Shown here one piece after another: positions 5,776 to 19,876 of a stretch of 26,926 nucleotides of DNA. The position numbers and the translations under genes were made by a program. The notes beneath the pieces are model-generated. The model ran no database searches. It saw only the letters and a list, made by a program, of their open reading frames with translations, and was not told the origin of the DNA. Origin of the DNA: a virus; IMG/VR virus record IMGVR_UViG_3300033148_006061, positions 1-26,926 of that record. One strand, 5' to 3'. Within the stretch, counting starts at the first letter, position 1. Every line of letters starts with the position of its first letter.

Positions 5776-6627
5776 ATGGCGAAACCTCAATTAGAGGATG
5801 GTCACACCAAGATAGCCAATGAGATAGTAGAGGCCCTGGCCCGGGTAAACCTCTCGGCCTATGAAAGCCGGGTGATCTGGTGCATCTTCCGGAAGACCTA
5901 CGGCTGGAATAAGAAGAGCGACCGCATCAGCTACAGCCAGTTCGAGGAGCTCACCGGCATGGACCGCCGGCACCTCGGTCGCACCATAAAGCTGCTAGTA
6001 GAACGGCGTATGATTACCTGCCAGGGCGAGGGGCAGCAGTTGGACTATGCCATCCAGAAGGATTATGACCTATGGGGCGAAGTGAATAATACACACCACG
6101 AACCATTGCCTAAGGGGGCAATAGATGTTACAGGCTCAACCATTGCCGAAGGGGGCAATAGTGAAAACGATAATAACCATTGCCTAAGGGGGCACGAACC
6201 ATTGCCTAAGGGGGGGGAGCTATTGCCTAAGGGGGCAACGAAACCATTGCCTAAGGGGGCAAACACAAAAGCAAGAAAGCATCTAACAAAAGCATTAGAC
6301 AAAAGCAACAAGACGACGTCGTTTGAGGACTTTCAGGAATCCTTAAGAGAAAGATTTAAGGACCTGGACTTTGACGGGGAACTGGAGAAGTTTCACCTGT
6401 ACTGGTATGAGGGCCGGCGCAAGCCGCCTTCAAATAAAAAACTGGCATTGCTTAATTGGATGCAGAAGGCGCGGAAAATCTCGGCGGAGAGTGATGCCCT
6501 GGCTCAGGCCAGGAGAGTGTCAGCGCGAGGAAACGAGCGTCTAAAAGGAGGTGATCATGGTTCTGAGAAGAATCGGGGAATCCCTGGAAACCGCCCGGCA
6601 GGGGCTTTCGACGACCTCGAGTCGTAA
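5776..6627 (+). CDS. Replication initiator, lambda O-like (Phage_rep_O N-terminal domain)
   Basis: A 283-residue protein. Residues about 6-98 match the phage replication protein O N-terminal winged helix (DGHTKIANEIVEALARVNLSAYESRVIWCIFRKT, then SYSQFEELTGMDRRHLGRTIKLLVERRMI). Residues about 108-165 are a low-complexity linker whose DNA carries six iterons. The C-terminal part (FEDFQESLRERFKDLDFDGELEKFHLYW...NWMQKA) resembles the C-terminal region of other phage initiators that contacts the helicase loader. By analogy with lambda, the protein binds the iterons in its own gene and recruits the DnaC-like protein encoded next. The start has AGAGGA upstream after a 41-base gap. Confidence 0.85.
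   Translation: MAKPQLEDGHTKIANEIVEALARVNLSAYESRVIWCIFRKTYGWNKKSDRISYSQFEELTGMDRRHLGRTIKLLVERRMITCQGEGQQLDYAIQKDYDLWGEVNNTHHEPLPKGAIDVTGSTIAEGGNSENDNNHCLRGHEPLPKGGELLPKGATKPLPKGANTKARKHLTKALDKSNKTTSFEDFQESLRERFKDLDFDGELEKFHLYWYEGRRKPPSNKKLALLNWMQKARKISAESDALAQARRVSARGNERLKGGDHGSEKNRGIPGNRPAGAFDDLES
6103..6262 (+). repeat. Six origin iterons inside the initiator gene
   Basis: Six copies of a 19-bp unit, consensus CCATTGCCTAAGGGGGCAA, begin at 6103, 6140, 6177, 6199, 6220 and 6244. Copies 1 and 6 are exact. Copies 2, 3 and 5 differ at one base. Copy 4 has eight G in a row and lacks the terminal CAA. Each unit holds an inverted repeat (TTGCC, six-base spacer, GGCAA). The copies are read in all three frames of the gene (LPKG in copies 1, 4, 5 and 6, IAEGG in copy 2, HCLRG in copy 3), so DNA rather than protein is conserved. 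Spacing is 37, 37, 22, 21 and 24 bp. This matches the layout of the lambda origin within gene O. Confidence 0.85.
6261..6320 (+). other. A-rich tract next to iterons, probable origin unwinding region
   Basis: Directly after the last iteron lies a purine-rich, strongly A-biased stretch with repeated ACAAAAGCA-like words and few GC pairs, in an otherwise GC-rich gene. In lambda an A+T-rich tract follows the four iterons and is the first region to melt. The position and strand bias here are the same, so I read it as the unwinding element. Confidence 0.6.
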
Positions 6628-7417
6628 AGAGGAGCGGACGTGTGACGAGTGCGGTGCCTCTTTCGAGACTACGGTCTGGATAAGGCCCGACGGTAGCGAG
6701 TTGTCTCCGGATAAACAGTGCCCGGAGTGCCGGCGCAAGCAGCGTGAGAAAGAGGATATCGAACGGTACCATCAGGAGCTGGAGGAAGCGAAGGAGGAGC
6801 AGCGGGATGCATGGTACGATCAGTTCGGCGTCAGCGGAATATTTCTTGAGAAATCATTCGAGAATTTTAAGCATAATCTGCAGCCGAAGGCCTTCGATGC
6901 TGTGAAGGGGTGGAAGGATAAGTCGATGGTCCTGCTATCACCCGGCGTCTACGGCGTGGGGAAAACGCACCTGGTATGCGCCCTGGCAAATCACCTTGTG
7001 GAGACACTGGAAACGGCGAAGTTCCAGAAGGGCTCTTACTGGGTTATAAGGCGGAAATGCCCGGTGTTCTTTACCTCGGAGTCAAAGCTATTGGCTAGGA
7101 TCCGTCAGACATATAATCGCCACGAGGATACGCGGGCGGAGACGGAGGACGGCGTGTATAGTTCGCTGGCGCGGTTCCCACTTCTGATTATCGATGATGT
7201 CGGTAAGGTACGGCCGCGAGATTATTCCTTCCTGCAGGGAGTCTACTTCAACATCATTGATGACCGCTATGTGAATGCTCAGCAGGTTGTTTTGACCACA
7301 AATCTCGATTTCAAGGAACTGGAGGAGCATATCGGCGGCGCCAACGCGGACCGGCTCCGAGAGATGTGTGGCAAAGAGGGCTTTATCAAGATGGCCGGTA
7401 AGAGCTACCGGCGTTAA
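6557..7417 (+). CDS. DnaC/IstB-like AAA+ helicase loader
   Basis: A 286-residue protein. C29, C32, C55 and C58 (CDECGAS...CPECRRK) form an N-terminal zinc ribbon, followed by a charged coiled-coil-like helix. The AAA+ core has Walker A at residues 130-137 (GVYGVGKT, K136), Walker B at 208-214 (LLIIDDVG, D213/D214), a sensor-like VVLTTNLDF, and a terminal arginine-rich segment (NADRLREMC) where DnaC-type loaders keep their arginine finger. It probably loads the host replicative helicase at the iteron origin, as lambda P or DnaC does. The start is set by AAAGGAGGTGATC directly upstream, close to a full match to the 16S anti-Shine-Dalgarno. The GTG at 6551 lies inside that site and is rejected. 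Confidence 0.88.
   Translation: MVLRRIGESLETARQGLSTTSSRKEERTCDECGASFETTVWIRPDGSELSPDKQCPECRRKQREKEDIERYHQELEEAKEEQRDAWYDQFGVSGIFLEKSFENFKHNLQPKAFDAVKGWKDKSMVLLSPGVYGVGKTHLVCALANHLVETLETAKFQKGSYWVIRRKCPVFFTSESKLLARIRQTYNRHEDTRAETEDGVYSSLARFPLLIIDDVGKVRPRDYSFLQGVYFNIIDDRYVNAQQVVLTTNLDFKELEEHIGGANADRLREMCGKEGFIKMAGKSYRR
6840..6855. repeat. Dispersed 16-bp palindrome, copy 2
   Basis: Reads TATTTCTTGAGAAATC on the + strand. Its reverse complement, GATTTCTCAAGAAATA, differs at one base from the copies at 12405 and 19948. It lies inside the helicase-loader gene. Confidence 0.55.
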
Positions 7418-10523: not shown

Positions 10524-11820
10524 ATGGAGAATATCGCTGAAGGACTGGCACCCCTGGCGGTGGATATCGATTCCGTCCGGGAGGACCCGCAGAACGCTAG
10601 GAAGCATTCATCCCGCAACCTGGCTGCTATCAAGAAGAGCCTCCGGACTTATGGCCAGAGAAAGCCTATCGTCGTCAACAGCGAGACGGGCATCATCGAG
10701 GCCGGCAACGGGCTATGGAGAGCGGCGAAGGCACTGGGATGGACACGGGTAGCGGCCGCCATGGTGAAGGATGACCCAGCCACCGCCAAGGGTTATGCAC
10801 TGATGGATAACCAGTCCGCGCTGCTGGCCGACTGGGATATGCCAGTCCTCAGTGAATTGTTAAAGGAACTCGATGCCGGCGTCTTCGATATGGAGCTTAC
10901 CGGGTTTAGTGAGAGAGAGATTGAGAACCTGTTAGCTGAGATACCGGAGCCAACGGTCGGCTTAATTGATGATGACGAAGTACCGGAGGGGGAGGATACG
11001 GCCTGCAAGTTCGGGGACCTGTGGCAGCTGGGGGATCACCGCCTACTATGCGGTGACTCGGCGCAGCGTGCCGATATCCAGAAGCTGATGGGCGGTGCCC
11101 TGGCAGACCTGGTAATCACCGACCCGCCCTATAACGTGAACTATAAATCCAAGGCCGGCAATACTTACACCGGTGGCAAATACGGCGGCAAGCTGAAGGC
11201 CTTTGAGGATGACAAGACCCTGGCTGGCTATCATTACTTTCTTACCGCGGTCATCGAGAACATCTTCAACTTCACCGCGGAGAAGGCGCCGGTCTATATG
11301 TGGTACCCGGTACAGTATCCAGCCATCTATTATCTGGCTGAAAGACAACATTGTCTTCGGCTACGGTACCTATCACAAGTGTTACGAGGCGGCAGCCTAT
11401 TGCTGGAAGAATGGCAAGAAGCCCTACGAGAACAAGAAGGCCACCGCCAAGGAGCGTGATGTCTGGATGGACCGCATGACCTTCATGGATTACCTGGACG
11501 TGTGGTACGTGCCCCGGGATGTCCGCAATGAGTATGTGCATCCTACTCAGAAGCCGGTGGCCCTGACCGAGCGGATGCTGAGGAATAACAGCAAGGAAGG
11601 TGACCGGGTCCTGGATACATTCGGCGGGTCCGGCAGCGTGCTCATCGGCTGTGAAAAGATGAGCCGGCGGTGCTACATGATGGAACTCGACCCCCACTAT
11701 TGCGACGTCATCATCAACAGGTGGCAAAAGTACACCGGTAAAAAAGCGATCAGGATCAATAGTGGGCAGGAAGACGAAACTAAATCCGCAGCTGCAGGAG
11801 CGAATATGCCAGCTGATTAG
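10524..11820 (+). pseudogene. ParB domain/beta-class DNA methyltransferase, frameshifted
   Basis: The first part (10524 to about 11315) encodes a ParB-like domain (residues about 12-110, with EAGNGLWRAAKALG) and the start of an N6-adenine or N4-cytosine methyltransferase with DPPY at residues 200-203. The rest, in the +1 frame from about 11326 (IIWLKDNIVFGYG), supplies HPTQKPVALTERML and the SAM-binding DTFGGSGSV box. The DPPY-before-FGGSG order is that of the beta class. The two halves meet near 11310-11326. Relatives usually have some 20 residues between the YMW strand and the IIW strand, and here there are about eight, so a small deletion of a length not divisible by three is likely. The first frame alone would give a 311-residue protein without the SAM site. 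Such fusions are common next to phage terminases. Confidence 0.8.
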
Positions 11821-12423: not shown

Positions 12424-12826
12424 GTATTACGGTGCCGTCTGGCCGGCGTGCAGGGCGGCGGGTATCAAGAGCCGGAAGACGCCATATAACTGGTGCAAGT
12501 CCGATAAGGATTTCGCCGAGGCATTTGAGGAAATACAGTCAAGGGTAGAGGATGAGCTGGCGTCTCGCCTTATCCTGCATGCCAGGGGCCGGGCGAAGAT
12601 GGACGCCGACCAGATCAGGTCTTCTATCTTCACGCTGAAGGCACTGAACCCGTCCAAGTATGCCGAGAAATACCAGGTCGGAGGGAATAACGGCGGTCCG
12701 CTTGAGGTGGACGTAGATGTTAAAGGAAAACTCATTAGCCTACTCGATCGCCTTGCTGCCCGAGCAGGAGAGGCGGAAAGCAATACAGAATCTCAGCCAG
12801 AAGGAAGCGGAGGTCCTGCTTCATGA
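12368..12826 (+). CDS. Terminase small-subunit-like HTH protein 2
   Basis: A 152-residue protein starting MAAKLTTKQCKELFLKKY. The frame stays open to 12272, but the segment before 12368 belongs to the zinc-ribbon relic in another frame. Residues about 5-45 form a helix-turn-helix (YYGAVWPACRAAGIKSRKTPYNWCKSD). The middle helices and FTLKALNPSKYAEKYQ correspond to the WWLERKHPQDW segment of gene 11762, and NGGPLEVDVDVKGKLISLLD matches its C-terminus, so the two genes are paralogs. This copy lies directly against the large subunit, which makes it the better candidate for the working packaging subunit. Confidence 0.72.
   Translation: MAAKLTTKQCKELFLKKYEYYGAVWPACRAAGIKSRKTPYNWCKSDKDFAEAFEEIQSRVEDELASRLILHARGRAKMDADQIRSSIFTLKALNPSKYAEKYQVGGNNGGPLEVDVDVKGKLISLLDRLAARAGEAESNTESQPEGSGGPAS
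12405..12420. repeat. Dispersed 16-bp palindrome, copy 3
   Basis: TATTTCTCAAGAAATA, identical to the copy at 19948. It lies within codons 13-18 of the second small-subunit-like gene (LFLKKY) and just before the stop of the zinc-ribbon relic. Confidence 0.6.
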
Positions 12827-14072
12827 CTGGTCATTTTGGGCACGCCCTAACCAGATGCCCCCGGACTGGGAATGGTATATCTGGCTGCTGCTCAGCGGGC
12901 GCGGCGGTGGCAAGACACGGACCGGTGCCGAGCTGGTCAATCGGTGGGCACATGACTTCTCACCAATAGCACTTGTAGGTCAGACGAAGGGGGATGTCCG
13001 GGACACCATGGTGGAGGTCGGCGAGTCGGCGATCCTCAACGTTTCGCCGCCCTGGTTCATGCCGGAGTATGAACCTTCCAAGCGCCGGCTGACCTGGCCG
13101 AATGGCGCCATGGCGATCATCTACTCCGGAGACGAGCCGGATCAGCTCCGCGGTCCCCAGCATGCCAAGGCCTGGGTAGACGAGCTGGCCAAGTTTAAGT
13201 ATCCCCAGGAGACATGGGATAACCTGATGTTCGGCCTGCGCATTGGCGAGAAGCCGCAGGCCGTGGTTACTACGACACCGCGGCCGATACCAATAATCAA
13301 GACCTTGGTGCAGGATGTGAGGACAGCGGTGACCAGAGGGCATACCCTGGAAAACAGGGCTAATCTGGCGCCGGACTTTCTGAAGTATATCCTAAGTAGA
13401 TACGAGGGCACCCGGATAGGCTGGCAGGAGCTGGCAGGAGAGATACTGGAAGACAACCCGGATGCTCTTTGGAAGCGCAAGCAAATTGACGAGCTGAGGG
13501 TCAGGGAAGCTCCCGACCTCCTGCGCATAGTAGTAGGAGTAGACCCGGAGGCCAGCAACACGGAGACATCTTCCGAGACAGGGATTGTCGTCGCCGGCAT
13601 AGCCAACGTTAATGGATCCACTCACGGATATGTCCTGGATGACTTGACGGTTAAGGCCTCACCCGGCGGATGGGCGAGCGCCGCCATCACCGGCTTTTAC
13701 AAGTTCAGAGCGGACCGGGTCATCGGTGAGGTCAATAATGGCGGTGACATGGTCGAACATACGATAAACAGCGTAGATTCCAGAGTGCCTTTCAAGCAGG
13801 TTAGAGCCAGCCGGGGCAAGCTGGTCAGGGCGGAGCCGATATCGGCTCTATACGAGCAGGGCCGGGTGCACCACGTAGGTGTCTTCCCTGAGCTGGAAGA
13901 CCAGATGTGCGAATGGGTGCCCGGGGACAGGTCACCTGACCGCATGGACGCCCTGGTCTGGGCCCTGACGGAACTCTTTGAGCAGGGCGAGCCGGGCAAG
14001 GTGGAGAGCAGTGGCGCCGTTAAGGGTAAATCAGAGCTGGCCTTCGGAGGCATAAGGAGAAGGGACTTTTAA
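12717..14072 (+). CDS. Terminase large subunit
   Basis: A 451-residue protein. The family opening is present (LLPEQERRKAIQNL...LHDWSFWARPNQMPP). The ATPase has Walker A at 61-67 (GRGGGKT, K66), Walker B at 153-156 (WVDE) and the coupling motif VVTTTPRP at 183-190. The nuclease half has D276 in VVGVDPEAS and D411 in SPDRMDALVWAL as metal ligands. It cuts and pumps DNA into the prohead with the small subunit and the portal. The start at 12717 overlaps the small-subunit-like gene by 110 bases, with GAGGTGG upstream. Starting at TTG 12753 would also keep all motifs. Confidence 0.93.
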   Translation: MLKENSLAYSIALLPEQERRKAIQNLSQKEAEVLLHDWSFWARPNQMPPDWEWYIWLLLSGRGGGKTRTGAELVNRWAHDFSPIALVGQTKGDVRDTMVEVGESAILNVSPPWFMPEYEPSKRRLTWPNGAMAIIYSGDEPDQLRGPQHAKAWVDELAKFKYPQETWDNLMFGLRIGEKPQAVVTTTPRPIPIIKTLVQDVRTAVTRGHTLENRANLAPDFLKYILSRYEGTRIGWQELAGEILEDNPDALWKRKQIDELRVREAPDLLRIVVGVDPEASNTETSSETGIVVAGIANVNGSTHGYVLDDLTVKASPGGWASAAITGFYKFRADRVIGEVNNGGDMVEHTINSVDSRVPFKQVRASRGKLVRAEPISALYEQGRVHHVGVFPELEDQMCEWVPGDRSPDRMDALVWALTELFEQGEPGKVESSGAVKGKSELAFGGIRRRDF

Positions 14073-16171
14073 TGAGCATATTCACTCAGGTGTTCAGAGA
14101 GCGTAAGAAGCCTGCGCCGCCGGTTGAAGAGCACGGCGTCCCAGGAACTGTTTTCATATCGGGGCAGCTGGTAGAAGAGGAATATAACGCTGACCTCCGC
14201 GGCTCCAAGGGGCTAACTGTCTTTGACAAGATGCGGCGGTCGGACGGCCAGGTGAAGGCTACTCTTCTGGTATGTGAGCTTCCCTTGAGGTCGGCCACCT
14301 GGGATGTCGAGCCTGCCAGCGATGACTCCAAGGACGTGGAGATAGCCGAGTTTGTAAAGAACAATTTCTTTGAAGAGATGACCATAACCTGGGACAGCTT
14401 CCTGAAGCATGCCCTGATCATGCTGTGGGCCGGCTTTATGGTCTTTGAGAAGGTGTGGATTATCGAGGACGGCATGGTGAAGTACCGCAAGCTGGCGCCG
14501 CGACTGCCGAAAACCATCTACAGCTGGGATATGGACGAGAATGGCGGGCTGAAAGGCATCACTCAGTACGCCTACCGGGGCAGCAACTATCAGATGATAC
14601 CCATCCCGGCCGAGAAGCTGCTCATTTACACCAACGATAAAGAGGGCAGCAACTTCGAGGGAATATCCATACTCCGAGCAGCCTATAAGCACTGGTACTA
14701 CAAAGACCAGCTCTACAGGATAGATGCTATCTCGGCGGAGCGGCATGCCACCGGCGTGCCTAAATTCACGCACCCGGCGAACGCCAAGGATGATGATAAA
14801 AATAGGCTGGACGAGATAGGGCAGAGACTTTACGCCCATGAGCAGATGTACGTCCGCCTGGCTGAAGATTACGGCTTCACCATCGAGGGATTGACCGGCA
14901 GCATACGGAGTGTGATGCCCTCGATAGAGCACCATGACAAGATGATAGCGAGGTCCGTGCTGGCACAGTTCCTGAATCTCGGCTCCAGCGATGTGGGCAG
15001 CTTTGCCCTGGCCAGAGACCAGAGTTCCTTTTTCCTCATGGCGCTGAGGTCCGTGGGGATCAACATCTGTGATACCACCAATCGGTACGCTATCCCCCAG
15101 CTGGTGAATTATAACTATAACGTTGACCACTATCCCCGACTGACGGTCTCCGGTCTGGAAACCAGGAATGTCAAGGATTACGCCGAAGCCATCACCGGGC
15201 TTATTGGACAAGGCGCACTAACTCTGGATGATGACCTGGAGAATGACCTCCGGGCGATGCTCAAGCTGCCGCCCAAGGCAGAAGAGGAGCCGGCCGAAGA
15301 GCCGGAGCCAGACAAGAACCCGGGGCCCGATACTCCGGATAAAGACGAGAATAAGGAGCGGAAGGTATTCCAGTCAGCCGAGGTCCCGAAGCGGCGCCGC
15401 GAGCTGACCTATGCCGAGGGCTTTGTAGCCTTCGATGAGATTGAGAAGGTTCTTGACTCCGGCGGAGAGAAGTTCGTTGACGCCACCAAGGATGTCATGG
15501 AACGCCAGATCGATAACCTGGTGGAGACGGCTACCAAGATTATCGAGAAGAAGCAGCTGGGTAAGATTGAGGATATCCAGGTGAGGTACCAGACCCAGAT
15601 GGCCGACAAGATGGCCGGGGTCCTCAAGGATATGTTCAACTATGGCCGCCTGCAGGTAAAGAAGGAGCTGTCCGCTCAGAAGCATACCGAGATGGCCGAG
15701 GTACCGTCGCCGCTTGGTGATGACGAGGAGATGGTTGCCGAGTTCCTGAAGACCAGGACGAAGGCCAGCGCCGGCGTCATGGCTAACAAGCTGAAGACGG
15801 CTACCAGCTTTGAAGCTCTCAGGCAGATTAAAGCCGGGGTAGTCGACAAGAAGGGACTGAAGTCCACACTAATGGACCTGTCTGATAAAGAGCTTATTGC
15901 TTCCGCCCGATATTCGGTCGCTGAGGCCTTCAACTTCGGACGCAGAATCGAGGCGGAGAAAGAGAAGGATGATATTGACAGGGTGCAGTACTCCGCCATC
16001 ATGGACGCTCACACATGCTCCAGCTGCGCTTCCCTGGACGGGCAGGAATGGGATTATGACGATCCCTGGACGGCGAAATATGCCAGCGGCAACCCGGACT
16101 GTGAAGGCAGGGAGCTGTGCCGCTGTGTGCTCGTATTTATAGCGAAGGCGGAGACGCCGGCAAGGAGGTAA
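14072..16171 (+). CDS. Portal (Mu gp29/DUF935-like) fused to MuF-like minor head protein
   Basis: A 699-residue protein. Residues about 1-400 are a DUF935-type portal (LRGSKGLTVFDKMRRSDGQV, then LLVCELPLRSATWDVEP, EGISILRAAYKHWYYKD, SVMPSIEHHD, LGSSDVGSFALARDQ). The portal is the DNA entry ring. After an acidic/proline linker (about 405-440), residues about 450-695 match the MuF/SPP1 gp7-type minor head protein, ending in the family signature DAHTCSSCASLDGQEW (cysteines 649 and 652) and CEGRELCRCVL (677, 683, 685). In Mu these are the separate genes 29 and 30. The start shares one base with the terminase stop. Confidence 0.9.
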   Translation: MSIFTQVFRERKKPAPPVEEHGVPGTVFISGQLVEEEYNADLRGSKGLTVFDKMRRSDGQVKATLLVCELPLRSATWDVEPASDDSKDVEIAEFVKNNFFEEMTITWDSFLKHALIMLWAGFMVFEKVWIIEDGMVKYRKLAPRLPKTIYSWDMDENGGLKGITQYAYRGSNYQMIPIPAEKLLIYTNDKEGSNFEGISILRAAYKHWYYKDQLYRIDAISAERHATGVPKFTHPANAKDDDKNRLDEIGQRLYAHEQMYVRLAEDYGFTIEGLTGSIRSVMPSIEHHDKMIARSVLAQFLNLGSSDVGSFALARDQSSFFLMALRSVGINICDTTNRYAIPQLVNYNYNVDHYPRLTVSGLETRNVKDYAEAITGLIGQGALTLDDDLENDLRAMLKLPPKAEEEPAEEPEPDKNPGPDTPDKDENKERKVFQSAEVPKRRRELTYAEGFVAFDEIEKVLDSGGEKFVDATKDVMERQIDNLVETATKIIEKKQLGKIEDIQVRYQTQMADKMAGVLKDMFNYGRLQVKKELSAQKHTEMAEVPSPLGDDEEMVAEFLKTRTKASAGVMANKLKTATSFEALRQIKAGVVDKKGLKSTLMDLSDKELIASARYSVAEAFNFGRRIEAEKEKDDIDRVQYSAIMDAHTCSSCASLDGQEWDYDDPWTAKYASGNPDCEGRELCRCVLVFIAKAETPARR

Positions 16172-16178
16172 AACGGCA

Positions 16179-16403
16179 ATGAAATACAGGGTTAGGCTGG
16201 ACATGTCTTTTGACAGGGAAGAGGATGCCCGGGCGCTACTAGCTCAAGCCCATGGCATGGTGGGCAAGGCCAAGAACATGAACCCGGGAGCAGCCAACGA
16301 GGAGATATCCTTTGTCGACCTGGAGATATGCCGGCATGATGAAGGCCTGCCGTGCATCCACCTCGAGCGCACTGAGATAAAGTCAGCGAAGGAGGTAGCC
16401 TGA
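16179..16403 (+). CDS. Small protein, paralog of the 21721 gene
   Basis: A 74-residue protein starting MKYRVRLDMSFDREEDARAL, with AAGGAGG 12 bases upstream. The first 13 residues and the DNA that encodes them are nearly the same as those of the gene at 21721 (MKYRVRLDLSFD). The rest contains CRHDEGLPCIHLE. The pattern of a first strand followed by a helix (EDARALLAQAHGMV) suggests a small ferredoxin-like fold. Function unknown; it lies between the portal fusion and the protease. Confidence 0.7.
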   Translation: MKYRVRLDMSFDREEDARALLAQAHGMVGKAKNMNPGAANEEISFVDLEICRHDEGLPCIHLERTEIKSAKEVA

Positions 16404-18139
16404 TGCCTTACACGATAGATAAACCACCGGATCAGATTAAGGGATTGCCAAAGCATGCCCAGGAGATATGGATATCCGCTTTTAACAGCGCCTATGACCA
16501 GTATGACAAAGATGAAGCGAAGGCTGCAGCTACTGCTTGGGCTGCCGTGAAGGAGGCCTATAAGCAGGGCGCCGATGGCAACTGGGTAAAGCTCGAAGAA
16601 TTAGCACATCCACATGGTGAGCATATCTGTGTCTGCCCTGACTGTGGCAAAGAAGTAACGGTGGCTGAGAATATCAAATGCAATACTCAGAATTGCCCTG
16701 AATGTGGAATCAGGATGAGAGCTAAAGAAATCGGCGAGAGAAGGGACATGGACGAGAATATAGAGACAGTCGATATCGATAATGTGGAGGTCCTGGCGGT
16801 AGGTACCTGGAGAGGCACGCCGGAGACGAAGACCTACACCAAGAAGGACCTGGACGAGGTAGTCAAGTCCTTCAAGGAGCTTACCGGCAACAAGCAGCTG
16901 AACTATGAGCCTCCGGTAAAGCTCGGGCATGACGCAGGGCAGAAGCTGCTGCAGAAAGACGGATACCCGGCTGCCGGCTGGATTGAGTCCCTGAAGAGAG
17001 TGGGAGATAAGCTGGTGGCCAACATCCGGGATGTTCCCAAGAAGATAGGGGATATCGTGAAGGCCGGGGGCTATAAGAAGGTCAGCTCCGAGGTCTACCA
17101 TGACTATGAGATGGGAGGCAAGGTCTATCCCCTGGTGCTGAAGGCAGTGTCATTCCTCGGTGGAGATATCCCCGCGGTGAAGACTCTGCAGGATATCATT
17201 GCCCAGTATGGCGATAACCAGGAAGACCAACTGGACATCGTTATCTACGAGATGGGCGAGAAGTCGGAGGTCAGCTATGATGAGCTGTCAGCCGGTCTGG
17301 AGGAATGGCTCTCCAAGGTAGAGGACAAGATCAAGGGGAGAGTCGGAGCCCCTGCCTTCCGGACGTTTGCCAGCGAAATCAAGGGCAGGCTGAAAGCGAT
17401 GCTTGCCAAGGAGACACAGCACGAGGAGAGCCTGCAGGCAAAGATAGATCAGGTCAGGCAGGCATACTATGCCCAGACCGCCTCCATCGCTAACAAAGAA
17501 TCCTGGGTAAGGGATATCTACGATGATGCTATTATCGTCGATACGCCGGCCGGGATGTTCAGGCTACCGTTCACGATGAATGGAGAAGGCGTTATCGCCT
17601 TTGACTTCGATAAGCAGGTAAAGGTCGAACTTACCTACACGCCGGTCCCAGAGACCGACAACGAAACCGAAAACAAAAAGGAGGAACTCATGTTAAAGGA
17701 ACTCAGAGAAATGTATGGTCTTCCCGAAGATGCTACTGAGGAGCAGGTCCTAGAGGCCGCCAAGGGCATCAAGATAAAGGCCGACAGCGCTCACAGCTCC
17801 CTGTCGGAAGCGGAGCAGGTGGGCAAAAAGGTGACTGATCTGGAGACGAGGCTGGCAGAGAGAGATCGTGATGAAGTCATCACCAAAGCCATCAACGCCG
17901 GCAAGTTAGTCCCGGCTCAGAGAGAATGGGCTGAGGAATACGCGCTGAAAGATCCCCAGGGGTTCGCAGCGTTTGTCGAAGCCCAGCCGAAGGTCGTCTC
18001 CCTCGGGGAGATCGGCACCAGTGAAGAAGCCGAAGTCGCGGAGCTTTCCGGAACTGACAAGAGCGTGGCCAGCCAGCTCGGGCTTTCCGATGAGTCCATG
18101 ACGGAGGAAAGAAAACTCGAAGCTAAGGAGGTCAGGTAA
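16403..18139 (+). CDS. ChaB-zinc ribbon-Mu gpI-like prohead protease and scaffold polyprotein
   Basis: A 578-residue protein. Residues 1-64 are a ChaB domain (DQIKGLPKHAQEIWISAFNSA...AAATAWAAVKEAY...NWVKLE). Residues 78-104 are a zinc ribbon (CPDCGKE...CPECGIR). Residues about 118-270 match the Mu gpI-like protease (VLAVGTWRG, VKLGHDAGQKLL, PAAGWIESLKRVGDKLVANI, KVSSEVYHDY, FLGGDIPAV). Residues about 350-425 (WVRDIYDDAIIVDTPAGMFRLPF) are a beta domain seen in other phage head proteases. From residue 430 the sequence is helical and charged like a scaffold. The protease would cleave scaffold and itself in the prohead. It starts on the preceding stop with AAGGAGG upstream. A weak second start at 16748 would give a product without ChaB. 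Confidence 0.85.
   Translation: MPYTIDKPPDQIKGLPKHAQEIWISAFNSAYDQYDKDEAKAAATAWAAVKEAYKQGADGNWVKLEELAHPHGEHICVCPDCGKEVTVAENIKCNTQNCPECGIRMRAKEIGERRDMDENIETVDIDNVEVLAVGTWRGTPETKTYTKKDLDEVVKSFKELTGNKQLNYEPPVKLGHDAGQKLLQKDGYPAAGWIESLKRVGDKLVANIRDVPKKIGDIVKAGGYKKVSSEVYHDYEMGGKVYPLVLKAVSFLGGDIPAVKTLQDIIAQYGDNQEDQLDIVIYEMGEKSEVSYDELSAGLEEWLSKVEDKIKGRVGAPAFRTFASEIKGRLKAMLAKETQHEESLQAKIDQVRQAYYAQTASIANKESWVRDIYDDAIIVDTPAGMFRLPFTMNGEGVIAFDFDKQVKVELTYTPVPETDNETENKKEELMLKELREMYGLPEDATEEQVLEAAKGIKIKADSAHSSLSEAEQVGKKVTDLETRLAERDRDEVITKAINAGKLVPAQREWAEEYALKDPQGFAAFVEAQPKVVSLGEIGTSEEAEVAELSGTDKSVASQLGLSDESMTEERKLEAKEVR
17690..18139 (+). CDS. Nested scaffold protein (Mu gpZ-like), in frame with the protease
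   Basis: An in-frame ATG at 17690 (codon 430 of the protease gene) is preceded by AAGGAGG at 17678-17684 with a 5-base gap, a ribosome-binding site as strong as that of any separate gene here. The 149-residue product (MLKELREMYGLPEDATEEQV...) is helical and acidic, as scaffolds are. In Mu the scaffold gpZ is made in the same way from an internal start in the protease gene, so I read this as the free scaffold. Confidence 0.75.
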   Translation: MLKELREMYGLPEDATEEQVLEAAKGIKIKADSAHSSLSEAEQVGKKVTDLETRLAERDRDEVITKAINAGKLVPAQREWAEEYALKDPQGFAAFVEAQPKVVSLGEIGTSEEAEVAELSGTDKSVASQLGLSDESMTEERKLEAKEVR

Positions 18140-18921
18140 TGACTATCTTAAGTGCAGATATTGAAACCTCCCGAAAGGTAGGCGGGTTAAAATCCTACCT
18201 AATGGGGACGGACATCATCTACAAGGGTAGCTTTGTGGCCATTAACGAGGCTGGTCTTGCCGTAGCTTTCCCAGTAGCCGCATCAGCGGTTGGCCTGCGT
18301 TTTGCGGGAGTGGCTATGGAGAAGGTCGATGACAGCGCTGGAGCTGGTAATAAATGGGTCCGTGTTTTTACCGAAGGCGAATTCCTGTTTGTCGCCAGCA
18401 GCATTACGCAGGTCATGGTCGGCGAGATGATGTACCTGGTGGACGACAACAACATGGACGATGTACCGGGTACCTACAGCATACCGGTAGGCATCCTTAC
18501 TGAGTATGTCAGCACGACATCAGGCTGGATTAACATCGGCCCGGCAGTAGCGAAGGAGCGCAATGCGAAAGGCCCGCTCGACTTCGTCACCAAGACGGAT
18601 AATTATACCGTGAAGGTAACGGAATCCGGCACCAAGTTTGCCATTGCCACCGATGCCAAGGTATTCACCCTGCCGTCAACAGCCAAGGGGCTGGTTTACC
18701 AGTTCTGGAACACCGGAGCTGACGGCAATAACATCATCACCATTAGCCCTGCCGCAGCCGATAGGATAGGTGGTGGCGGCTTGGGCACTGGCGTTGACAA
18801 CAAAGACCTCATCAACACCAAGGCCACGGCTTTATATGGCGATATGGTCGAGATCGTCGGGGATGGGGCTGATGGCTGGATCATCACCAAAATAGTCGGC
18901 ACTTGGGCGAAGGAAGCCTGA
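18139..18921 (+). CDS. Capsid decoration/cement-like protein with extra C-terminal beta domain
   Basis: A 260-residue protein. Residues about 1-135 (TDIIYKGSFVAINEAGLAVAF, VGLRFAGVAMEKVDDS, VRVFTEGEFLF, GEMMYLVDDN, IPVGILTEYVS, WINIGP) have the pattern of DUF2190-like head decoration and cement proteins. Residues about 150-258 form a second beta-rich unit (DNYTVKVTESGTKFAI, YQFWNTGADGNNIITISPA, DMVEIVGDGADGWIITKIVG) similar to surface domains of virion proteins. It sits between scaffold and capsid, the usual place for a decoration gene. A short hairpin (AGCCC AAA GGGCT, 18926-18938) follows the stop, without a T-tract. Confidence 0.7.
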   Translation: MTILSADIETSRKVGGLKSYLMGTDIIYKGSFVAINEAGLAVAFPVAASAVGLRFAGVAMEKVDDSAGAGNKWVRVFTEGEFLFVASSITQVMVGEMMYLVDDNNMDDVPGTYSIPVGILTEYVSTTSGWINIGPAVAKERNAKGPLDFVTKTDNYTVKVTESGTKFAIATDAKVFTLPSTAKGLVYQFWNTGADGNNIITISPAAADRIGGGGLGTGVDNKDLINTKATALYGDMVEIVGDGADGWIITKIVGTWAKEA

Positions 18922-18964
18922 GGATAGCCCAAAGGGCTGAATAAAGAGAAAGGAGATTTAAGAA

Positions 18965-19876
18965 ATGCTTGTCAATTCTCAGACGTTAGCCGCGGTGCGA
19001 ACTGGATTCAGGGCTATCTTCAAGGACGCTCTTGGCAAATACCAGGAGGACATGGCCACGTGGAAAAAGATAGCCACTGTCTTCGACAGCACCACGGAAA
19101 AGGAAACCTATAACTGGCTGGGCGCCGTCCCCTCCATGTCGGAGTGGAAAGACCAGCGGCAGCTGCACGGCCTGCGCAACTTCGACTACACGCTGACCAA
19201 CAAGGACTGGGAGGCTACAGTCGAGGTGGAGAGGAACGCCATCCGGGATGATAAACTCGGGATGGTCACTCCCAGGATTCGCAGTCTGGCCAGGGCATAC
19301 CTCCGCTTCATCTTCGAGAAGGTTTTCAGCCAGCTCGACGATGGAGCCACCCTGCTTGCCTATGACGGCACGGCGATGTTTGCCGATACCAGGACGATCG
19401 GGGCGAGCGCTAATATCGATAACCTCTTGAGCGGCGCCTACTCCGGGAGTTCGGCAGAAATCCGAGCCGCCATCTCGGCAGCTATGGTGGCCATGGCTGC
19501 TTATCAGGATGATTGGGGTAAACCGATGAACCTGGTACCGGATACCATCGTCTGTAGCCCGAGTATGTACGTCGCTATCAGGGAGGCTCTGAAGGCGGAT
19601 GTGGCCGGGCAGCAGAGGACTGAATCGGAGTTTATCAAGAACATCATCTCTTCACCATGGATAGACAGCGATGTCCTCGACTGGTACCTGCTGTGCACCA
19701 CGGAAGAGGTGAAACCCATCATCTTCCAGAACCGCCAGAATGCGGAGTTTAACCAGGTGGATAACCCGAACGACAGCCACGTATTCCTGCACAAGACGTT
19801 CCTGTACGGCGTGGACTGCCGGTTCCAGGTTGGCTATGGTGACCCGCGCACGGCCATCAAGATAGTCGACGCCTAG
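18965..19876 (+). CDS. Major capsid protein, Mu gpT-like
   Basis: A 303-residue protein, the usual length for Mu-like major heads (about 300). It shows the family order: N-terminal LVNSQTLAAVRTGFRAIFKDAL, then YNWLGAVPSMSEWKDQRQLHGL, DYTLTNKDWEATVEVERNAIRDDKLGM, IFSQLDDG-type helix, and the C-terminal IIFQNRQNAEF...FLYGVDCRFQVGYGDPRTAIKI. It forms the HK97-fold icosahedral shell with the scaffold and protease encoded upstream. AAAGGAG lies upstream of the ATG. The gene keeps the strong GC bias of the head block. Confidence 0.92.
   Translation: MLVNSQTLAAVRTGFRAIFKDALGKYQEDMATWKKIATVFDSTTEKETYNWLGAVPSMSEWKDQRQLHGLRNFDYTLTNKDWEATVEVERNAIRDDKLGMVTPRIRSLARAYLRFIFEKVFSQLDDGATLLAYDGTAMFADTRTIGASANIDNLLSGAYSGSSAEIRAAISAAMVAMAAYQDDWGKPMNLVPDTIVCSPSMYVAIREALKADVAGQQRTESEFIKNIISSPWIDSDVLDWYLLCTTEEVKPIIFQNRQNAEFNQVDNPNDSHVFLHKTFLYGVDCRFQVGYGDPRTAIKIVDA

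Follow-up and report, generated by a model that had tools for sequence, protein, structure and literature searches.

Phage-specific iterons inside O-like initiator genes: a very probable lambda-type replication origin and its covariation with the recognition helix

The window, that is, the whole stretch of DNA analysed here, is the complete IMG/VR record IMGVR_UViG_3300033148_006061 (26,926 bases) and is probably a fragment of a virus genome. One strand carries its main genes, and the GC skew is positive over the full length, with no switch found anywhere in this 27-kb fragment. The features on which the analysis draws are listed below, with the repeats numbered as iterons.

5776 to 6627, + strand: O-like replication initiator gene, 283 amino acids (PF04492 Phage_rep_O, PHROG, AF2)
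5965 to 6003, + strand: codons of the recognition helix (residues 64-76; AF2 helix 64-76)
5971 to 5973, + strand: codon of residue 66 (His), whose column shows the strongest covariation with the arm base of the iterons among N-domain columns
6013 to 6029, + strand: aTTACCtgccagGGCGA, putative degraded iteron within the codons of the wing, in the register of the intact copies of relatives (residue 80.3)
6103 to 6121, + strand: iteron 1, CCATTGCCTAAGGGGGCAA, exact, read LPKGA
6140 to 6158, + strand: iteron 2, one substitution, read IAEGG
6177 to 6195, + strand: iteron 3, one substitution, read HCLRG
6199 to 6217, + strand: iteron 4, right arm lost (CAA to GGG), read LPKGG
6220 to 6238, + strand: iteron 5, one substitution, read LPKGA
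6244 to 6262, + strand: iteron 6, exact, read LPKGA
6263 to 6311, + strand: presumed unwinding element, an A-rich tract that contains CAAAAG at 6266-6271, 6287-6292 and 6300-6305
6557 to 7417 (start codon 6551 or 6557), + strand: DnaC-like helicase loader gene (phrog_50, PF01695)

The product of 5776-6627 matches PF04492 Phage_rep_O in a profile search (E 1.2e-23, 83.9 bits against a cut-off of 28.7), and its PHROG matches are families named as O-like replication initiators. The protein is laid out as an N-terminal winged helix (residues 1-100), a linker whose DNA holds the repeats, and a C-terminal part. The AlphaFold2 (AF2) model of residues 1-104 is a winged helix with a mean pLDDT of 86; a PDB sequence search with the initiator returns only weak winged-helix matches, and a Foldseek search only generic winged helices, with no close structural relative. 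The next gene, which overlaps the 3' end of the initiator gene, matches phrog_50, DnaC-like helicase loader (E 3.6e-49), as well as PF01695.

An earlier note, made from the letters alone, claimed six copies of a 19-mer in the linker. The six repeats are real and in register at 6103-6262, inside the linker of the Phage_rep_O initiator, although "six copies of" the 19-mer is slightly generous wording: copies 1 and 6 are exact and copies 2, 3 and 5 are one base off, but copy 4 is without its right arm, a loss that the note does not mention. Similarly, the inner dyad TTGCC-6-GGCAA that had been ascribed to each copy is intact in copies 1, 2, 5 and 6, but not in all six. The spacing does change from 37 to about 22 bp as described (start-to-start distances of 37, 37, 22, 21 and 24), and the three-frame reading is reproduced, with LPKG from copies 1, 4, 5 and 6, IAEGG from copy 2 and HCLRG from copy 3 (frames 2, 0, 1, 2, 2 and 2 for iterons 1 to 6). 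In dinucleotide shuffles of 6051-6330 (n=40), no 15-mer recurs even once with at most one mismatch, against six copies in the real region.

The rest of the window outside the array holds no copy of the 19-mer at one mismatch or fewer. Just 5' of the array, over the conserved DYDLW codons, ATGACCTATGGGGCGAA at 6065-6081 agrees with the repeat in 12 of 17 positions, a match that could be due to chance. The iteron 18-mer occurs once in each of two other viral contigs (within a helicase-like reading frame in L041, in sequence not annotated here in L040), without an array in either, and the other viral contigs searched contain no tandem array. A dispersed repeat element was rejected on these single occurrences without arrays.

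To place the repeats among relatives, we collected O-like genes from IMG/VR and genome loci with patterns from the initiator protein and with N-domain alignments. About 300 loci are among the matches listed, many of them overlapping records. After removal of N-domains at least 70% identical, the first set contains 60 genes and a second set, scored with unchanged parameters, 51 further genes; the comparison spans 110 diverged O-like genes, and combined counts are given over 111 genes (60 + 51). The N-domain ends at a conserved Trp, and only DNA 3' of this Trp was used to derive the repeat of each gene. Lambda O served as the positive control: when the repeats in the corresponding part of that gene are simply listed, the four annotated iterons of lambda are recovered.

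Linker repeats are present in nearly all relatives, with a dyad specific to each phage (TTACC-6-GGTAA, TTATC-6-GATAA, TTAGC-6-GCTAA, TTGCC-6-GGCAA and others). The relatives retain the DNA repeats while the peptide and the frame vary, the reverse of the outcome that the earlier note named as refuting its reading. Named phages carry linker repeats in most cases (lambda, ES18, IPK, Acba_4, Jimmer1, CBP1, Mimir87, FSL SP-016, a Yersinia phage and others). Seven of the loci, L056-L062, come from genome assemblies with no relation to one another (Streptomyces, Shewanella, Bradyrhizobium and others), on contigs about 48.5 kb long or on pieces; judged by title, length and O sequence, they appear to carry phage lambda itself, probably as control DNA left in public assemblies.

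Directly 3' of the repeats lies the A-rich tract that had been described, with 24 A in 40 bases and three CAAAAG motifs. Over the 330 bases after the N-domain, each relative has on average 2.65 CAAAAG, where the remainder of its locus predicts 0.19; at least two are found after the N-domain in 50 of 60 relatives, and all three frames are used. The lambda O linker encodes the same TKDTITK stretch, and the lambda origin has CAAAAG too. A lambda-origin design in unrelated sequence, as first proposed, thus fits the iterons, which are indeed unrelated, but not the A-rich tract, where CAAAAG is held in common with lambda. Since the motif is common to lambda, the relatives and the window, the unwinding tract is the shared part of these origins and the iterons are the differing part.

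We turn to the protein that would read the repeats. Of all N-domain columns, the one that shares most mutual information with the linker arm class is residue 66 (z 11.6, 0 of 400 permutations), which the AlphaFold2 model places third in the recognition helix (64-76). Of 34 genes with C as the middle arm base, 29 have His66, and of 28 with T, 19 have Asn; the association has a Fisher P of 9e-13, kinship ignored. G or A is often found with Ser66, in small numbers. The best N-domain tree yields 18 independent pairs, of which 12 co-change, none change in the opposite sense and 6 are without change, on forks that are mostly weak and with only one independent pair left by the strongly supported branches. 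The window, with His66 and TTGCC, is as the C-His pattern predicts. Nothing else speaks as strongly as this covariation, a correlation across relatives, for repeats that are the targets of the surrounding gene's own product, and it bears only indirectly on binding of the iterons by O. The phage-specific linker repeats with CAAAAG after them, and the wing matches described below, point the same way.

The same data bear on the reading that the repeats are sites of another protein, such as a repressor, or an RNA element, and control the expression of O instead of marking the start of replication. The repeats do lie within the transcript of an early replication operon, and autoregulation by O binding within its own gene would be compatible with such sites. 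However, it is O's own residue 66 that covaries with the repeat, and the repeats are followed by a conserved A-rich tract, as in the origin of lambda. An RNA element was rejected: Rfam gives no match, there is no tRNA, and the fold of 6090-6270 is not unusual (z -1.5). We consider control of expression alone to be very unlikely.

The arrays of the relatives have a counterpart within the DNA-binding domain. When the motif derived from the linker is run over the rest of each locus and the best match is recorded, this match falls in the DNA of the wing, or of the preceding helix end, in 74 of 111 genes against 1.5 expected (38 of 60 in the first set, with 0.74 expected, and 36 of 51 in the second, with 0.73 expected); the region scored starts at the end of the recognition helix, includes the wing and comprises about 30 codons. 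The copy usually sits at codons 80-86, in the first strand of the wing and the turn, and sometimes a second one precedes it by about 22 bp, at codons 74-79. Frame 1 predominates among the wing copies and frame 0 among those of the linker. The named phages given above, from lambda to the Yersinia phage and others, have no clear wing copy.

Agreement between wing and linker is close within each gene. The wing match exceeds synonymous recodings made with the codon usage of the locus itself (combined P 4e-28 in the first set, with many single genes only at P 0.01-0.05). Own wing-linker pairs score 0.65 of the maximum, against a permutation maximum of 0.38, and among genes whose arm class is assignable in wing and linker alike, the two classes agree in 25 of 26 of the first set and in 47 of 48 of both sets (the permutations reach at most 16 and 29). 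The linker classes of the first set hardly cluster on its N-domain tree (18 changes against a shuffled mean of 20.1), and therefore kinship alone is not the source of this agreement. The second column of high mutual information is residue 84, in the wing; Gly and Asp predominate there, which is what the retention of GGT or GAT arms at that place would lead one to expect. A wing residue as the sole determinant of specificity was rejected: in genes without a wing copy, the wing residues do not follow the iteron class (judged by eye), and residue 66 is thus the better candidate. From the wing copy to the first linker iteron the distance is 68-69 bp in most genes, or about 6.5 turns; because a fixed protein length largely accounts for this value, the idea that wing copy and array are in phase on the DNA helix was dropped and nothing is concluded on it.

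Could the array and the wing copies of the relatives be passive by-products of tandem duplication, rather than maintained sites? Repeats can grow by slippage, and some relatives have long exact tandem units (L011, with a 21-bp period). Against this, wing and linker copies share an identity of 0.92 over a stretch of about 18 bp, and of 0.33 beyond it. This confinement shows that the wing match is not the remnant of a longer duplication, and an extended duplication of the wing was rejected on the flank identity. The arm class, moreover, agrees in 47 of 48 genes though the classes are scattered over the tree, and we give passive duplication little credence. Least credible of all is a feature of the protein, a repetitive linker peptide of LPKG type from which the DNA similarity would follow: LPKG is indeed read from four of the six window copies, and the linkers of wing-positive relatives use frame 0 most often, but the frame changes already contradict it (copies 2 and 3 lie in two other frames, and frames 0, 1 and 2 are used 85, 50 and 10 times among the 145 linker copies of those relatives), dyad arms are kept while peptides change, and the wing copies exceed their synonymous recodings.

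In the window, the scan with the linker-derived motif finds no intact wing iteron, only a copy that matches the repeat at 11 of 17 letters. This copy, at 6013-6029, reads ATTACCTGCCAGGGCGA, with 8 of 10 arm positions and the usual 6-bp spacer, a match that is partly forced by the protein, as Thr and Gly are common there. The wing copy is exact in L071, a near relative, and L072 carries a dyad of the same arm class in its wing, with only a moderate match to its own linker repeat. We read the window as a phage with a degraded wing copy.

Combining the wing, the linker and residue 66, we favour, with some reserve, a joint reading in which the wing DNA is a working iteron in a large group of O-like genes, so that the protein would bind DNA that encodes its own surface; wing, linker and residue 66 would change together, and the copy in the window would be decaying. 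The code in this joint reading is C-His, T-Asn and probably G or A-Ser, and iteron classes would switch often between related phages. The wing copy may serve as an extra site of the array or as a self-repression site, or may result from an origin that grew from an early in-gene site. If the wing iteron works, a single mutation there can change the site and the protein at once. One wing-positive gene, on IMGVR_UViG_2894675838 (L313, 3001-6306), is possibly a cultivable test case, since the form of the record number points to an isolate genome.

As for the array itself, the O-like initiator gene very probably contains a replication origin of lambda type, with the repeats as its iterons. This reading is supported by homology, anatomy and covariation, from which we infer origin activity. 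The lambda-type features found are dyad iterons in the gene after the DNA-binding domain, an A-rich tract, and a loader gene downstream; the points against are the first two spacings (37 bp), looser than those of lambda, iteron 4, which is a half site, the weak forks of the N-domain tree, and a GC skew without a switch in the fragment, which does not decide where an origin lies. In the proposed mechanism, the winged helix of O would bind the TTGCC-6-GGCAA dyads via the recognition helix, whose His66 probably contacts the arm at its middle C and reads it. Several copies of O would load onto the array and assemble; O would then help to melt the adjoining A-rich CAAAAG tract, by analogy with lambda, and the DnaC-like protein encoded next door would deliver the replicative helicase.

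Origins inside initiator genes are known from lambda and the Stx phages (PMC7466680) and from SPP1 (PMC6316719), and the mechanism of O at the lambda origin is tested biology (PMC7466680). Lambda and the Stx phages 933W and P27 share with the window the Pfam initiator family and the dyad iterons in the linker (PMC7466680), and in lambda, too, the A-rich tract with CAAAAG comes right after the iterons and the helicase-loader gene is next. The iteron sequence of lambda (CCCTC...GAGGG) is not that of the window (TTGCC...GGCAA); unlike lambda, the window has two 37-bp spacings and a DnaC-like loader instead of lambda P, and the lambda wing is without an iteron copy, unlike that of most relatives of the window. 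In SPP1, likened here by description and not by sequence, oriL lies in gene 38 (replisome organiser gp38), with direct repeats and an AT-rich unwinding element in the initiator gene and the helicase loader next (PMC6316719); SPP1 differs by a second origin, oriR. The RepA_N initiators of plasmids and satellites also bind semi-palindromic repeats with an N-terminal DNA-binding domain (PMC7145576), but they belong to a different family, and the repeats of the satellite PLE are in a non-coding region. The window is thus an unexceptional member of the origin-in-initiator-gene kind, with its own iteron. For wing-encoded iterons and a residue-66 code, the open-access papers searched hold no earlier description, an absence that is weak evidence.

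How initiators and their binding sites shift specificity together without loss of replication is a long-standing question. Among the roughly 100 diverged phage genes the iteron class switches many times, residue 66 emerges as a candidate for recognition, and sites are overlaid on the coding frame, including the wing. Predictions for residue-for-base swaps follow, which are testable in vitro with short oligonucleotides, and origins become predictable from sequence in uncultivated phages.

Two further observations concern other parts of the window. The head module at 12717-19876 is Mu-like (Mu-type portal PF06074, gpT-like capsid PF10124), and the replication module is lambda-like. The overlapping frames 10524-11459 and 11203-11820 resemble two halves of one ParB-like DNA methyltransferase, with DPPYN in the first and HPTQKP and DTFGGSGSV in the second, which suggests a frameshift near 11.4 kb.
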